This document shows, in pieces, positions 22,571 to 42,694 of a stretch of 64,000 nucleotides of DNA (position 1 is the stretch's first letter; every line of letters starts with the position of its first letter). The position numbers and the translations under genes were made by a program. The DNA comes from Linderina pennispora (taxonomy: Eukaryota; Kickxellomycota; Kickxellomycetes; Kickxellales; Kickxellaceae): NCBI RefSeq assembly GCF_002104995.1, contig NW_024468249.1, positions 558,001 to 622,000 of the forward strand, given 5' to 3'. Below the pieces are notes generated by a model that was not told the origin of the DNA, ran no database searches, and saw nothing but the letters and a program-made list of their open reading frames with translations.

Positions 22571-23326
22571 ATATGGCTATTCTAGACATAAACTGAAATA
22601 CAGGTAGTGTCTGCACGACTTTCAAGCGGTATGTTTCAGTTGTTGATTGGCTACTAGTTGAACAAGGTGCGTCATTTCTCAAGTTTTTACTCTACTTGTC
22701 TTTATCTTTAGCTTTATCTTTATCTTTACCTATATATAAGATTTTATAGTCCAAAAGTGTCCGACTGTCTGCTAGAACCTTTTTAATTAAAAATATCCCT
22801 TTTAAACCTCAATGCGAGTTTGGGTGACTTGCTCCGTAAACTCCGTTTGATCTTGTGCGGTATCTGACCTCGTCGGTGAAACTAGGACGAGTTGTTATTG
22901 TAGTGGTCACAGGTCTCCACTAGATATCTCCATTGGTTCAGTGCAAGAGCTGCTCTCGTTGTCGGTCGGCCTGATAACTTCCATGGTGTCATCATGGTGG
23001 TCATCACCGGCTGCGCAACACTCTTAGGATATCTATTTATGAGCACCTATTGAATAAGGCCATATAGCTCTTCTAGCGGTCATGCAATATTTGTGGGTTT
23101 ATTTTATAAATTAATTTGGCTTATGAACATGCGTAAGTGGTAGTATTTGGGCCACAATGGACCCAGTCTGTATAGACTGATTCAAGAGACGGTATCAGTG
23201 CTAAGGGCCCCAAGAACCATGCAAGCCAGATCATTATTAATAAAGAGTTCTTAATGCTATGCATACGCAATACAGCAAAACTGAACAGCATCATTTCTCT
23301 TCTTACTTGCCTATTGAATTTCTCAA

Positions 23327-23990
23327 ATGAATATTACCCGCAGCACTACTGTCATAAAGACATCACTTGGTGGTATTGGCTTCCGTGATTCTATGTTGCC
23401 CCGCCTAGAGCAATTTGTACACAGCGTCAATATCATCAAAGAGCATACATACATGCTTGCACGATGGATATTACTCCATCAACTAGCTGGCGGGGATGCT
23501 TTTGACCCTTCAATACCTATGAAAAAGGGATTCTTTCGTTCAATTTATTTATTCATTTATCGTAACCTGAAGGCGAAGACTGTCATATCTGCCGAGGATT
23601 TCGTTAGCCGGAAGGACAGGTCAGAACTGTCGAGCGCAGATTTCGGTGATGTAATTAGATACCATATTTATGATTATCTACTACATAATGGCGATATCGA
23701 GCTACATAGCGCGCGGAATGAATCAAGTAGCAACATATGTGGATACCGAGCTGCTAGCATCATACAAGAACAACATTGTGTTGCACTATGGCAGTTGCCT
23801 ACAGCGGATTCTGGCCAAATTGATTGATATTCGCAGCCACAAAAACACACTGCACAGTACAATGGGCAATGTGTCCAAGGCTGAGTTCAATGACGCATGT
23901 CAAGTGTGTATTTGTACACCTGCACAGAAGCTCCGCCAGGCAGTTGCCTCTAGGCACCCTGATCGCCATTGCACCAACAATCATCCGACA
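23327..23990 (+). pseudogene. Truncated Fanzor N-terminal remnant
   Basis: The first 120 or so residues (MNITRSTTVIKTSLGGIGF ...) are nearly identical to the N-terminus of the Fanzor at 42062-39601. Near 23707 a small deletion relative to that copy shifts the frame. The second frame, visible from 23670 (GMNQVATYVDTELLASYKN ... LRQAVASRHP), continues the homology until the deletion junction at 23960. All RuvC and zinc-finger coding sequence is missing, so no active nuclease can be made. What follows the junction is the noncoding 3' end of the element, although the frame happens to stay open to 24089. Confidence 0.8.
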
Positions 23991-24056
23991 CGTTCAAATG
24001 ACCGGTTCGCCGTGATGCTCTTATCGACGTGTCAACCCATGCTGACTAGCAACCGA

Positions 24057-24071
24057 GCTCGCATCGCGAGC
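24057..24071 (+). repeat. Subterminal hairpin of element copy 1
   Basis: Perfect 6-bp stem GCTCGC/GCGAGC with loop ATC, ending nine bases before the terminal CTAG. It is conserved in copy 2. Its size and placement match Helitron 3' hairpins. Confidence 0.75.
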
Positions 24072-24931
24072 AGAGTGTTTCTAGTATAGGGAATATCCTT
24101 TAAACTGCTCTATCCTATGTACTACTTTTTTGAGACGCATAACTGGAGATAATCATACACATTATCCTGTCATTCGATGAGCACTTATGATTTGCTCTAG
24201 AGAATCTGTAGCTCTCACCGATGTTGTCATTTGCTATTCCAACTAATAAGGTACAGGATCAGACACTAAACACAACTGGTATCTATATGCTTGAATATGT
24301 TCACCCATGGCTAACAGTATGTAGCCATATCGCGCAATACCCCACCTGGGAACTCGTTCATCCTTGCCAAGGATGAACTATTGCATAATGCAGCGCGCAC
24401 ACTAAACGCAATAGGGCGTATTTCAAGGCTCTCATACATCTATATATGTGTTACGAGAAGTGGTAGTGCCAATCTTCAGTGATGTGGCGGCGAATATAAC
24501 TTTGGGATTAGTCATGCCACAACAACATAAACGAGAAAGGATAGACAGGCTGCTTATACAAGTCATATGTTATACTAATCACGATGTTTCCGCCCGCTGT
24601 AGGCGCTAAAAGTCACCACAATTATGCAAGACAAACAACGCTTATATCGCATAGAGGTGGGCTCATATCGCAAGCGCGGAGCACTCAGGTATATACCAAG
24701 TCTAATCTGAAAGCCCTAATCAGGATCACATGCACTTATGCAATCCAGCAGCTCCCTACTTCACAGGATACAGCAACCCACATTACTAGAGTCTCTGTTG
24801 TTAATACTAATTGCTACTAATTGTGCAACAAGCTATACTCATGTCTACAACACTCTCATTCTCTGCTCGCTAAATTGCCTTAACGTTTGGAAACACTATA
24901 TTTTCTGCTTGACCCACACACAACTAATACT

Positions 24932-38207: not shown

Positions 38208-38624
38208 TTTTGAAAAAGGGTGCTTGTCAATGTAGTTGTGAAAAACGAGTTGGCTTTTCAGAAATCAGCCAGCACTAGATACTATCCACATATAGCTGCC
38301 TGGCAATATCGGACATTATGAGACACTGGATTGTGGATCTGGACCCAAGATGCAGCTGTACTCCAGTCCCACGAGCGTAGGGTTCCTGCAAAAGCTAGTA
38401 TAGTGGCAGGTAGTCCCATCGTTAATTATGTGCATGCAGCAAAAACCACCTCACCGCAGTAGCTCTAAGAAACAAAACTCCCACACACGAATGGACCCTT
38501 GAAACCGTGGACGGCGAGGTGTAGCCTGCTAATACTTGTGCACAAAGCAGTGTCAGCTAGTATGCTGCGCTCTTGGCTCTTTTTCCTTTAACCGATTCTC
38601 CACCAGTCTAAACCAACTCTATCC

Positions 38625-39401
38625 ATGAATATATTCGTGCCTCTAATACTGGCAGCTATTCTATACATTCAGTCTGCCCCAGCCTTTTCCAACGTCCTTC
38701 ACTACAGACCACACGGACCTGGCAGGCCAGACGGGCTATTGAATTGGCTACAGCCGCCACGTCTTCAATCCTATCCCACGCCTACACAGTCCACAACGCT
38801 GATTTCTTGCTCAGAGCTGCGTCAAATTATCATACGCAACGGATACACTGCTGGCGATGACTTAGAGGCACACTGCCAAATTCTCAACCGTGACGCCTCG
38901 CGTCTGGGCCGGATCCAGACCCGAACTGAGCTCGCCATGTTTCTTGCCCATGTGCTGCTCGAGACCGGCGGATTAACGCAGTTTGAAGAGCACGCAGCAC
39001 TGGTGGACCAGCAGGCTGCCGCACGCTATGCAAGCCCTCTTGGTCGGAAAGACAAATACTATTTTGGCAGAGGATGCTTACAGCTGAGTTGGCCTGAAAA
39101 CTACAAGGACGCGTCGCTAGCACTGTATGGCAATGGTAACATTTTGATCGATGATCCCGACTGGGTAGCCCGCGACATTAATGTGGCATGGGCGACGGCG
39201 TTTTGGTATTGGCGTGAGCGCGTCCGCGTTGTGTCTGGTGTGATCGACTCAATGGACTTTGGAAAGACCATTCGTGCCATCAACGGCCAAATTGAATGCA
39301 GTGGCCTGGATGCTACTGCACAGAAGCGGTTTGAAATATACTGGAACATCCTCGCTGTCTTTGGTTTGCCTCAGCCTGTACATCGCAATATCTCCTGCTA
39401 G
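38625..39401 (+). CDS. Secreted GH19 chitinase-like (lysozyme-fold) protein
   Basis: An intact frame of 258 residues. The N-terminus is a signal peptide (MNIFVPLILAAILYIQSAPAF), then a Pro-rich linker to about residue 60. The GH19-type catalytic domain follows. It contains ELAMFLAHVLLETGGLTQFEE (the HETxG-like segment with the acid Glu) and KDKYYFGRGCLQLSWPENYKDAS, the GH19 signature FGRGxxQLSWxxNY. Later come DDPDWVARDINVAWATAFWYWRE and AINGQIECSG. GH19 enzymes cleave chitin or related glycans and are common in plants and bacteria but unusual in fungi; transfer is a possibility I cannot test. The Helitron-like element ends only 48 bp beyond its stop codon, so the element may have inserted into its 3' UTR. 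Confidence 0.8.
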   Translation: MNIFVPLILAAILYIQSAPAFSNVLHYRPHGPGRPDGLLNWLQPPRLQSYPTPTQSTTLISCSELRQIIIRNGYTAGDDLEAHCQILNRDASRLGRIQTRTELAMFLAHVLLETGGLTQFEEHAALVDQQAAARYASPLGRKDKYYFGRGCLQLSWPENYKDASLALYGNGNILIDDPDWVARDINVAWATAFWYWRERVRVVSGVIDSMDFGKTIRAINGQIECSGLDATAQKRFEIYWNILAVFGLPQPVHRNISC

Positions 39402-39449
39402 ATGAGGTGACAGATAATAGCATTCTTGCTGCTGCATTAACTTTAGATA

Positions 39450-39600
39450 CTAGAAATATCTGCTCGCGATGCGAGCTCGGCTGCTAGTCAGCATGGGTTG
39501 ACACGTCGATAAGGGCATCACGGCGAACCGGTCATTTGAACATGTCGGATGGTTGTTGGTGCAATGTCGATCATGGACATCTCCCACCTTGATTGCCTGC
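39450..39600 (-). ncRNA. Candidate omega (guide) RNA region of the Fanzor element
   Basis: In TnpB and Fanzor systems the guide RNA is transcribed from the noncoding segment after the nuclease gene, through the element end and into flanking DNA. Here 150 bases separate the stop from the terminal CTAG. About 124 of them (39450-39573) are retained with high similarity in copy 1, which lost the coding region next to it. The segment ends with the 6-bp hairpin. This is positional inference; no transcript evidence. Confidence 0.35.
39462..39476 (-). repeat. Subterminal hairpin of element copy 2
   Basis: Perfect 6-bp stem GCTCGC/GCGAGC with a three-base loop, eight bases inside CTAG on the minus strand. 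The same hairpin is in copy 1. Confidence 0.75.
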
Positions 39601-42062
39601 TCAGCGCAGACGTTTCAGGGCTGGTTCGCTGCTGCTGGCAGCAGAATCACCTGCAGCTGGTCCACGCCTCTTGTGCGGGTTCTTTGTTGCAGGGGTGGTG
39701 CCAGAAGTATCGGCAGCAATGGCCGTAGAACAACAGAACCGTTCAGGAATACTGCCTGAATCACAGAGTGACTGGAAAATGAGTCTGAAGTTTAGAACTG
39801 CTGCGAGATCGCGGTTCAAGAGCCGAGACGAATAGGCTCGCCTGTATTGTGCCATGGCCCGCTTACATGACTCGCTTGTACAGCGGAGAAGGCCATGGCA
39901 CTTCACAGTTGGGTTCTTCGATCTCTGGTAGGGCCGCGGATTGGGAACATGCCGGAATGTCTGCAGTGACTTATCGCAGCAGAGCGGGCACATTGATGAT
40001 GTCCGGAATTCGTCGATCAGATAGACTTCAAAGCCATGGTGCTTGAACTTGTCGCGCCATCCCTTGCCACGAATCGGCGCATGGTGCCGGGCCATCGGCG
40101 CACTCCAACTGCCCATGATCAGCACTGGATCTGGACCGAACTTGCTCCGGAGTTTCGCAGCAAGCCTGTGGTCTGCACGGGCCTGGTTCATGAATGAATC
40201 AAGGCGCAGCTTGCGGTGAAGCGGGTACACCTTGGGACTGGTACTGACACCCGGATGGGCCTTCCACCGCCTCTGGTGCTGCTTGTTTGACTTAGTGGGC
40301 TGCTGCTCTGGTAACCTTCGCGCTGTCATCGTGTTGGCATAAAACGGTGCTAGGACACACCGCACAGATGCACGGGCAGCAACGTAGGCACGGAATTTTG
40401 CTGGGCTAAGGGTCCGGCAGCAGTGTTTGGAAAGCTCTGCCTCTGCTCTGCGGACAGCATCTTCTAGGACTTGATCCTTTGTAGCCCGACGAATCCTGTC
40501 ATAGTGGCGCAGCTTGAGCTCCTTATTGCGCTGCTGCCGTGTGTAGCGGTAGAGCATTTTTCACCCTCTTTCCCATTGCTGCTATTTTCGTGCATCATGT
40601 ATAGCAAATCGCCCCAACCTGGATCGATGAATACACAGCGGCCTTTCAGATTCTGCAGCTCTGGCTGTGGTATTTGGTGGATATAGCAACAGTCAGCTGT
40701 AGCATCAGCATCTACTGCAGCACCAGTCTTAGGTACCTTGTCTTGTAACAAAATGCATATCGTTACACCATCTGTTGTCGCCATTCCGTGGAATTTTCTA
40801 TCACCATGCGCCTTAAATGGCTTTGATGTCAGATCTGCGACCCGGCCCCACACATCCCACACAGGTTGTGTGATCCCTTGGACCGGGTCGTGTGCACAGA
40901 CTGGGGGTGCTGGTGCATATGCATTGTTAAGTGCTGCAACAGTGTCTGCTGCTGCCGCCGATGCAGCAGCAAGCGAATCAGCCGCTACTGCTGCAGTTGC
41001 TGCAGTGGCCTCTGTTTCATCTGATGGCATCTTCGCTGCTTCGCGTGCAGCCTTCTTGGCCAATTTTTCGCCCTTTTCTGCTGCTTTCCTTGCCTCTGTT
41101 GCTGCCCTCTTTGCTGCGTTGATCTCTGTAGCCTGCTCACGGGTTTTCGAAACAAACACCCGCTTGATTATTTGCTTGTCTAAGCGCACATGGCCTGGGA
41201 TCCATGATGTCCGCAGAGGCAAGCATTGAGGGGGAGACTTGCCAAGCTGCTCATTCTCAATAAGCTGGCATAGACGAATGTATGCACGCAGATGCTTAAG
41301 TGGGTTTACCTTGGCATCATAGTATCGGCTGTCTTTGGCGAATCTGTACTTGGCACCATAGGCATTGAGGACTGGTGCCAGCTTGTTGTAGATTGCAAGC
41401 ATCGGTGGGGTGAGCACACTGAGATCAGGGTGCCTAGAGGCAACTGCCTGGCGGAGCTTCTGTGCAGGTGTATAAATACACACTTGACATGCATTATTGA
41501 ACTCAGCCTTAGACACATTGCCCATTGTACTGTGCAGTGTGGTTTTGCGGCTGCGAATATCAATCAATTTGGCCAGAATCCGCTGTAGGCAAGTGCCATA
41601 GTGCAACACAATGTTGTTCTTGTATGCTGTCATCAGCTCGGTATCCACGTATGTCGCTACCTGATTCATTTCACGTACGCCATGTAGCTCGATATCGCCA
41701 TTATGCAATAGATAATCATAAATATGGTATCTAACTACATCACCGAAATCTGCGCTCGACAGTTCTGGCCGGTCCTTCCGGTTGACGAAATCCTCGGCAG
41801 ATATGACAGTCTTCGCCTTCAGGTTGCGATAAATAAATAAATAAATGGAACGAAAAAACCCCTTTTTCACAAATATTGCAGGGTCAAAGGCATCATCGTC
41901 AGCTAGTTGATGGAGTAATATCCATCGTGCAAGCATGTATGTATGCTCTTTGATGATATTGACGCTGTGTACAAATTGCTCTAGGCGGGGCAACATAGAA
42001 TCACGGAAGCCAATACCACCAAGTGATGTCTTTATGACAGTAGTGCTGCGGGTAATATCCAT
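39601..42062 (-). CDS. Fanzor (eukaryotic TnpB-like RNA-guided nuclease), frame broken by one base at an A5 run
   Basis: Frame A (42062-40464) and frame B (40557-39601) together encode about 820 residues if one base is restored at AAAAA (40557-40561); this is a -1 type change. RuvC-I is FIDPGWGDLL (Asp about residue 480, codon 40623-40625). It is followed, across the break, by the arginine-rich YRYTRQQRNKELKLRHYDRI typical of TnpB/Fanzor. Next come VLIMGSWSAP, then EVYLIDEFRTSSMCPLCC, where the Glu of IDEFRTS (codon 40009-40011) fits the relocated RuvC-II glutamate described for Fanzors. Zinc ligands are CPLC plus CTSESC. RuvC-III is NRDLAAVLN (Asp codon 39808-39810). The N-terminal 300 residues are a helical guide-binding-type region, and residues about 315-385 are an Ala/Lys-rich insertion. 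All catalytic acids are present; only the frame is interrupted. Confidence 0.85.
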
Positions 42063-42694
42063 TTGAGAAGTTCAATAGGCAAAGTAAGAAGAGAAATGAT
42101 GCTGTTCAGTTTTGCTGTATTGCGTATGCATAGCATTAAGAACTTTTTATTAAAGATTTTCTGGCTTGCATGGTTCTTGGGGCCCTTAGCACTGATACAG
42201 TCTCTTGAATCAGTCTATACAGACTGGGTCCGTTGTGACTCAAATACTACCGCTTATGCATGTTCATAAGACAAATTAATTTATAAAATAAACCCACAAA
42301 TATTGCATAACCACCAGAAGAGCTATATGGCTTTATTCAATAGGTGCTCATGAATGAATATCCTAAGGGTGTTGCGCAGCCGGTGATGACCACCATGATG
42401 ACGCCATGGAAGTCATCAGGTCGACCGATACTGAGAGCAGCTCTTGCGCTGAACCAATGGAGATATCCAGTAGAGACCTGTGACCACTACAATAATAACT
42501 TGTCACCCTGGTTTCACCGGTGAGGTCAGATGCCGCACAAAACCAAAGGGAGTTTACAGAGCAAGTCACTCAAACCCGTGTTGAAGCTTAAAAGTTTTAT
42601 CTTTTATTCAATTAAAAAGGTTCTAGCGGACGGTCGGACACTTTTTAGACTATAAAATCTTATATATAGGTAGGTAAAGATAAAGATAAAGATA

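Follow-up and report, generated by a model that had tools for sequence, protein, structure and literature searches.

A decayed Helitron copy encoding Fanzor1 in the fungus Linderina pennispora, and its likely partner in transposition

What does a transposon that encodes no transposase gain by carrying a nuclease? What part Fanzors play for their transposons is poorly understood, and for us the question was raised by a 64,000-nucleotide stretch of the saprotrophic fungus Linderina pennispora (contig NW_024468249.1, which we call C1, positions 558001-622000; the whole stretch is 'the window' below), in which a 3243-nt element on the minus strand (39450..42692) begins with TC, ends in a hairpin and CTAG, and holds the remains of a Fanzor1 gene. 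We think it likely that this is a decayed copy of a fungal Helitron that encodes Fanzor1 and no transposase, that is moved in trans by a Helitron encoding Rep and helicase (Rep/Hel), and whose nuclease, with a guide RNA taken from the right end, serves homing. Much of this can be read directly from the DNA, namely the Helitron ends, the exact insertion, the identity of the protein, the likeness to the Rep/Hel Helitron in 5' end and hairpin, the fusion of the two, the selection and the conserved right end.

The element, its ends and its target

The 3' terminus of the window copy reads GCTCGC-ATC-GCGAGC-AGATATTT-CTAG, then TA. The hairpin (39462..39476, minus strand) has a 6-bp stem and a 3-nt loop and lies 8-9 nt upstream of CTAG, just where Helitron1 elements have theirs (about 10-12 nt from the 3' end), and TC...CTAG likewise agrees with the 5' TC and 3' CTRR of Helitron1. 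At the other end (42663..42692, minus) stands TC with (TCTTTA)n, followed by a block that the Rep/Hel Helitron also has at its 5' end; the number of TCTTTA units varies among the 5' ends of many copies, for example at window positions 42670-42692. Host DNA begins with the target-site A preceding the 5' TC (42693..42693, minus) and with the target-site TA right after CTAG (39448..39449, minus), and a guide would, on our reading, begin after that TA. A second copy in the window (22699..24084, plus strand) has lost most of the Fanzor gene and has both ends. The 5' TC, the 3' hairpin with CTAG behind it and the presence of two copies are as a preliminary description of the locus, made from the letters alone, had proposed, and so is the lack of terminal inverted repeats: in inverted orientation the first 40 nt match the last 80 over no more than 5 nt, which is at chance level (equalled in 77% of 1000 shuffles). 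A Helitron2 type, with its asymmetric terminal inverted repeats, was rejected on this ground, and a mariner-type Fanzor element was rejected both for the missing inverted repeats and for having TA on both sides in just 11 of 21 ends.

That description had also suggested a search for further copies, and these are plentiful in the 26.2-Mb assembly of 222 contigs (C plus a number denotes a contig, L plus a number a copy locus). Patterns found 182 element 3' ends (up to 2 mismatches), 112 element 5' ends and 130 Fanzor gene starts (up to 3 mismatches each), with no hit for any of the reversed-pattern controls. For sequence comparison, the last 651 bases were used as query; of 251 candidates, put in order of their likeness to the 3' part of the window copy, the best 40 gave 39 copies fetched with flanks, a sample biased to those retaining the 3' part, which with the two window copies makes 41. 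The TA after the 3' end is there in 41 of 41 (38 distinct sites), CTAG itself being altered by one base in a few, and genome-wide it stands next to 96 of 98 exact matches of one 3'-end form, the exceptions being C3:18792 and C112:1614942. The genome-wide 3' pattern is the form AGAGNNNTT, which the window copy, one base shorter, fits less well. The 5' end was defined by rule as the leftmost TC of its run, since extra TCTTTA units often precede it, and so defined it follows an A in 21 of 21 distinct resolved ends, with T before that A in 11, C in 7 and A in 3. This count excludes L009, L010, L014, L021, L023 and L034 (unresolved or duplicate), three further, partial ends of L017 and L032, the composite copies L011 and L017, where CTAG comes directly before the 5' TC, and the second window copy, which the rule resolved wrongly by halting within the repeat run and where by eye the 5' end is 22699, with G before it.

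Were these elements really inserted as cleanly as their ends suggest? We joined the flanks of 17 copies, searched them as one query and scored the best 40 of 125 candidates; a filled site yields a pair of 70-base matches lying apart, an empty one a single unbroken stretch. At least four element-free sites exist, for the window copy (C221, 91%), L013 (C99, 94%), L031 (C106, 93%) and L046 (C154, 93%), all in the same assembly and not, as had been envisaged, in related strains. Those of the window copy and L046 are collinear across 140 bases, and their 26-base junction patterns match without a gap, with 2 mismatches, at a single place each in the genome, so that the C221 site confirms both ends of the window element. 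The empty site of L013 is 3 bases longer than its joined flanks and that of L031 8 bases longer, and a fifth match, for L015 at C112:1278153, takes in no more than 9 bases on the 5' side. The two clean sites therefore fix the ends exactly and show no target duplication. The proposed insertion between A and T stands and can be refined: the target is A/TA, the stroke marking the point of insertion, and with four empty sites among 17 copies this is the Helitron1 manner of inserting between A and T with no target duplication. The contigs with empty sites, C221, C154, C99 and C106, are either a second haplotype or duplicated segments.

Some sites are present twice with the element in both, since three pairs of copies (L019 and L023, L012 and L014, L034 and L039) have both flanks alike at 94-97%. 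In a tree of the copies, which we did not use for ancestry, L012 and L014 pair together, L023 joins L043 before L019, and L034 and L039 lie apart; such discordance at duplicated sites suggests gene conversion by other copies. In L032 the Fanzor copy directly adjoins a short element (L032:1270-1500) that consists of the 5' end in two inverted copies.

The nuclease and the selection acting on it

The gene in the window is broken. Its first open frame (40464..42062, minus) runs from an ATG at 42062 to RuvC-I and is out of frame beyond it; a frameshifted second one (39601..40560, minus) holds RuvC-II, the zinc ribbon, RuvC-III and the C-terminus, and a minisatellite of the GDATGDAVGG type found in uninterrupted copies has been deleted. 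The window copy is a pseudogene because the Fanzor motifs are split over these two frames. RuvC-I had been read as FIDPGWGDLL, and FIDPGWGDL is indeed at 40605..40631 (minus), its W being R in the uninterrupted copies; the zinc finger and NRDLAAVLN of RuvC-III are likewise where they were thought to be, the former a C4 ribbon, CPLC...CTSESC, at 39865..39990 and the latter at 39790..39816, both on the minus strand and in another frame than RuvC-I. RuvC-II, IDEFRTSS, is in that second frame too, at 39994..40017 (minus). Elsewhere the gene is in better health: in eight of the 41 copies the frame stays open for 863-894 codons from stop to stop, and in two further copies for 817 and 798 codons. L010, L044 and L045 are examples of copies with an uninterrupted Fanzor.

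The comparison with Fanzor profiles that the preliminary description had called for bears out its identification. The protein of an uninterrupted copy matches the Fanzor1 of Parasitella (PDB 9cf0) at 2.1e-84 and SpuFz1 (8gkh) at 1.3e-34, from the N-terminus through the zinc ribbon, and a profile of the Fanzor reaches 6.3e-112 and 3.2e-46 against the same two. The catalytic D/E/D are kept, aligned to D383, E541 and D606 of SpuFz1 (the E being that of IDEFRTSS and the last D that of NRDLAAVLN), and N385 of SpuFz1 is replaced by G. The published Fanzor1 motif, D-X(125,275)-[TS][TS]XX-C4 zinc finger-X(5,50)-RD (PMC3627910; papers are cited by PMC number, each for the passages that bear on the point), is present in P0003, a Fanzor protein of this genome, with D520, T728 (208 apart), a zinc ribbon from C732 and R791-D792, as read from alignments. 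The Pfam model of the TnpB/Cas12f zinc ribbon, PF07282, stays below its cut-off (best 18.8 bits against 26.3, a Coemansia homologue also falling below), and searched in six frames against the genome it gave no matches at E 0.001, so it is of no use for counting Fanzors there, though Fanzor1 is not defined by passing it. The assignment therefore rests on the structure matches, and on these the encoded protein is a Fanzor1. That homologue, P0004 of Coemansia sp. RSA 2673, is the only one that protein searches returned (29% identical over 95%) among the best 7999 candidates, which were chosen by most words in common and probably filled by an alanine-rich stretch, and which say little on distribution. 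Its RuvC-III has N for the catalytic D (NRN against NRD), and it may be nuclease-dead.

Has anything kept this protein intact? Variants were counted by alignment to one reference copy, with expectations scaled to synonymous changes by transition/transversion and CpG class, in 38 of the 41 copies at first and in 35 for the final count, which leaves out L012, L019 and L039 (copies of duplicated sites) and the minisatellite codons. Private variants are close to neutral, with 294 non-synonymous changes, or 0.93 of expectation (bootstrap 0.76-1.16), and 13 stops (0.97). Variants found in at least two copies are another matter, with 157 non-synonymous changes (0.46; 0.38-0.56) and 3 stops (0.24; 0.06-0.52), and for those in at least four copies the non-synonymous ratio is 0.32, with 0 stops where 7.7 were expected. 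The first count of 38 copies, minisatellite included, gave 0.96 private and 0.58 shared for non-synonymous changes, and 0.99 and 0.22 for stops. Gene conversion moves shared variants towards neutrality and should thus work against such a signal. The counts show purifying selection on the Fanzor protein while the element spread, and neutral decay once a copy had inserted.

A likely Rep/Hel partner joined head to tail

If the element has no transposase, as was correctly claimed from the start, one must come from elsewhere, and a relative with Rep and helicase was proposed as the thing to look for. It is found in the same genome, shares the 5' end, and is closer at hand than was foreseen: its 3' end lies directly upstream of a Fanzor-element 5' end wherever it was found. 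Upstream of the L009 Fanzor copy, a 639-codon frame that is open at the locus edge contains a Pif1 helicase domain (1.5e-78), and it is followed by a Helitron 3' end, GCTTGC-ATC-GCAAGC-ATGAGACTG-CTAG, and then directly by the Fanzor element, 5' end first. A single compensating pair distinguishes the two hairpins. This Rep/Hel 3' end is present at eight places (up to 3 mismatches; reversed control 0), and at all eight it runs with no spacer into the Fanzor-element 5' end, the junction being CTAG followed by TCTTTACC at five (L011, L017, L049, L051, L052) and having altered starts at three (L009, L048, L050).

Helitron Rep (PF14214) has 13 matches in the genome, two halves at each of six places and a divergent one on C68. 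At five of the six the halves are 131-152 bases apart, as an intron between them would explain; at C171 the distance is about 5 kb. At six of the eight places a Fanzor-type 5' end stands upstream of Rep on the same strand, among the matches listed (C157:19907, C2:655266, C112:891852, C157:1120560, C171:12046 and C212:570570); the other two, on C23 and C1, have no Rep match, and C23 retains a 97-residue helicase remnant only. The length of the Rep/Hel unit is about 5.6 kb at C2 and at both C157 places, three of the six in all; it is less at C112, and more at C171 and C212. A 1402-base junction query was matched over its length at four places, namely C212 (its source), C157, C23 (from base 2) and C112, and at these four the junction continues unbroken into the Fanzor gene. 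Fanzor starts are at the usual distance also at C1:2108324 and C171:856, and 4 kb further away at C157:1110311, with none for the C2 unit among the matches listed. Fanzor thus occurs fused head to tail to a likely autonomous partner and, in large excess, by itself. The full unit consists of about 5.6 kb of Rep/Hel and about 3.3 kb of Fanzor, with Fanzor alone as the abundant non-autonomous form, and given the common 5' end and the matching 3' hairpin it is most likely the Rep/Hel Helitron of the same genome that moves the Fanzor element in trans.

Several observations from these loci deserve recording in their own right. The divergent Rep (C68:198243-198650) lies inside a 1989-codon open frame, the longest listed, and probably belongs to a different Helitron family. 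A fragment of a second Helitron helicase, 61% identical, is upstream of the Fanzor copy in L033 (L033:720-1266), and in L029 a 550-codon open frame of no Pfam family (L029:4915-6567) separates the Fanzor gene of this composite from the second of its 5' ends. Another repeat, with the long inverted core CTGAAATTTTTCAGGATGC and a GGCCTCC edge, occurs at L011:693-1005, L021:5270-5700 and L033:1373-1690 and adjoins a cut helicase gene in L011. An identical (100%) stretch of 140 bases precedes the element in L015 (its 5' flank) and, at L017:5408-5547, a helicase fragment in L017. In the window itself, an open frame with a GH19 chitinase domain (PF00182, 1.7e-12; 38592-39401) stops 48 bases before the 3' end of the element, which also has a CobW-type gene as a neighbour, 99% identical to a Linderina pennispora protein.

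What the nuclease might do, and what is already known

The last 115 nt of the element (39450..39564, minus) form a conserved right-end block, marked out by its density of shared variants: 9 in 115 sites, as against 86 in 398 four-fold sites, 117 in 540 sites of the 5' non-coding part and 13 in the 37 nt after the stop codon. Without the last 40 nt, which bear the hairpin, the block has 4 in 75. Private variants are similar in the block (18/115) and at four-fold sites (74/398). This stretch, the probable source of a guide RNA, looks to have been kept under selection during spread, and selection on the protein and on the last 115 nt are the two newly seen signals of this work. Fanzor guide RNAs arise at the transposon end and extend into the flank (PMC10432273), and Fanzor1 scaffolds include target-site bases next to the transposon (PMC10711439), which the near-invariant TA would, by analogy, fit. 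We infer trans-mobilisation by the Rep/Hel Helitron, a right-end guide RNA, a target-adjacent motif (TAM) of the NATA type, and homing. The last 115 nt and TA would form the guide-RNA scaffold and the host DNA beyond would be the guide; the nuclease would cut the empty homologous site, and repair would copy the element in. Each guide would belong to one copy, which would explain why an element with no transposase retains its nuclease. A TnpB gene drive against plasmids without the insertion is on record (PMC11870625). For Helraiser it was found that the donor site is resynthesised, with no empty one detected (PMC5876387), so that the rescue of excised donor sites is not a likely role. One can go further and imagine an RNA-guided Helitron, in which a replicative rolling-circle element is joined to a Fanzor1 unit that takes a new guide with every insertion from the flank after CTAG-TA, and whose nuclease reads NATA and the flank, cuts the empty site and drives the element in; the filled and empty versions of sites in the host assembly are as such a drive would meet them, and we offer this idea tentatively, at rather less than even chances.

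What weighs against homing by a trans-mobilised Helitron? Transcript, guide RNA and cleavage are predictions from the DNA. An excision-repair role like that of TnpB is not called for in Helitrons, which are replicative. Three of the Rep matches contain a stop and two of the Rep/Hel units are stretched by insertions, none being demonstrated intact. SpuFz1 contacts its TAM through residues that include Q129, Q130, N133, R291 and Y345 (PMC10432273), and by a reading of the alignment by hand, with R96 unaligned, just two of the five aligned residues are the same here (N133, Q134, T137, R308 and A446), so that the TAM may differ from that of SpuFz1. The 3' region folds no better than shuffled sequences (z -0.06, 88 of 200 as good; z -0.75, 22% of 500), and a scan against Rfam gave nothing relevant, its one match being isrG on the plus strand (40932-41010) at 19.8 bits against a gathering score of 100. 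The Fusarium elements FoHeli1 and FoHeli2, for which the passages concerned mention no Fanzor, insert between TNAT and A according to the text of PMC5148889, whose figure legend prints T, so that a preference of Rep alone may explain the TA.

Several other explanations must be weighed. The most resilient is that the right-end block is conserved solely as a binding site for Rep/Hel and is no guide RNA: the block holds the Helitron hairpin and end, it has no surplus folding stability, and 130 nt of it are also kept in the window copy from which Fanzor is deleted. Against it, the density of shared variants is lowest (4/75) 40-115 nt inward, away from the hairpin, and we regard this explanation as unlikely, if a serious one. 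It is somewhat more doubtful that Fanzor has its part in transposition itself, as a regulator or helper of Rep/Hel or in the choice of the A/TA target, in place of homing at empty alleles. The junction at eight of eight places and the near-invariant target TA (96/98) would suit such a role, but the TNAT/A preference is already found in the Fusarium Helitrons, and a pure regulator would have no need of the catalytic residues that have been retained. Improbable to much the same degree is the notion that the head-to-tail units are no mobile unit at all and reflect chance insertions of Fanzor beside older Helitrons, or one segmental duplication. Helitron 3' ends can serve as targets and tandem Helitrons are on record (PMC5148889), yet a junction with zero spacer, repeated with small variants at eight of eight places, speaks against this, and the 3' flanks differ in the four units read (L009, L011, L017 and L029, the last counted as a unit by position only). 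Finally, we give very little credence to Fanzor as a passive passenger, captured by a Helitron and retained only through a few recent intact source copies, since for all that gene capture by Helitrons is frequent and most copies are broken (a frame of at least 863 codons in only 8 of 41), the shared variants should then be neutral too, and they are at 0.46 (0.38-0.56) against 0.93 (0.76-1.16) for private ones. With selection in spread followed by neutrality, exact ends, a likely transposase partner, uninterrupted copies and four sites both filled and empty, the guide, the TAM and homing by this Helitron have become directly testable, and in a fungus that is not a pathogen.

How new is such an element? 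In the literature searched, which had subscription journals mostly outside it, we found neither a Linderina Fanzor nor one that sits in a Helitron1-type element or is fused to Rep/Hel. Helitrons as carriers of Fanzor1 are, of course, on record, and later papers list them as such (PMC10711439). The examples are CRe-1, CRe-2 and CRe-3 of Chlamydomonas reinhardtii, Fanzor1 genes within non-autonomous Helitron2 elements (Bao and Jurka 2013, PMC3627910), which resemble ours in keeping the 3' end in nearly all copies and in having no target duplication where insertions end at the consensus 5' end (PMC3627910). They differ in their two hairpins, asymmetric inverted repeats, insertion after TTTT and 5-10 exons, and their 5'-truncated insertions often have target duplications (PMC3627910). 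The Linderina element, in contrast, has TC...CTAG, an A/TA target, a single uninterrupted frame, a fungal host and a fused Rep/Hel unit.

SpuFz1 presumably belongs to SPu-1 of Spizellomyces punctatus. Both share with our element a fungal host, a Fanzor1 and the catalytic D/E/D (PMC3627910, PMC10432273), and the 5'-CATA TAM of SpuFz1 resembles the NA/TA sites in Linderina (PMC10432273); SPu-1, however, is bounded by terminal inverted repeats of 33 bp and putatively by TA duplications (PMC3627910), whereas the Linderina element has neither and carries a Helitron hairpin. The Fanzor1 of Parasitella parasitica (PDB 9cf0-9cf3), the closest solved structure, can be likened by protein alone (2.1e-84). 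Among fungal Helitrons of both types, Helitron1 and Helitron2, there are some that encode a TET/JBP dioxygenase (PMC12730594); they are alike in having an extra enzyme gene aboard, although the enzyme differs and the main text of that paper has no occurrence of Fanzor. With canonical Helitron1 elements ours has in common the 5' TC, the 3' CTRR, a short hairpin lying some 10 nt before the 3' end, an AT target and a genomic Rep/Hel (PMC5148889, PMC5876387); what sets it apart is that it carries a Fanzor1 and that two units are fused with no spacer, both hairpins being kept. Fanzor1 in Helitrons is thus known from the non-autonomous Helitron2 elements of Chlamydomonas, and what is new here is the fungal Helitron1-type variant.

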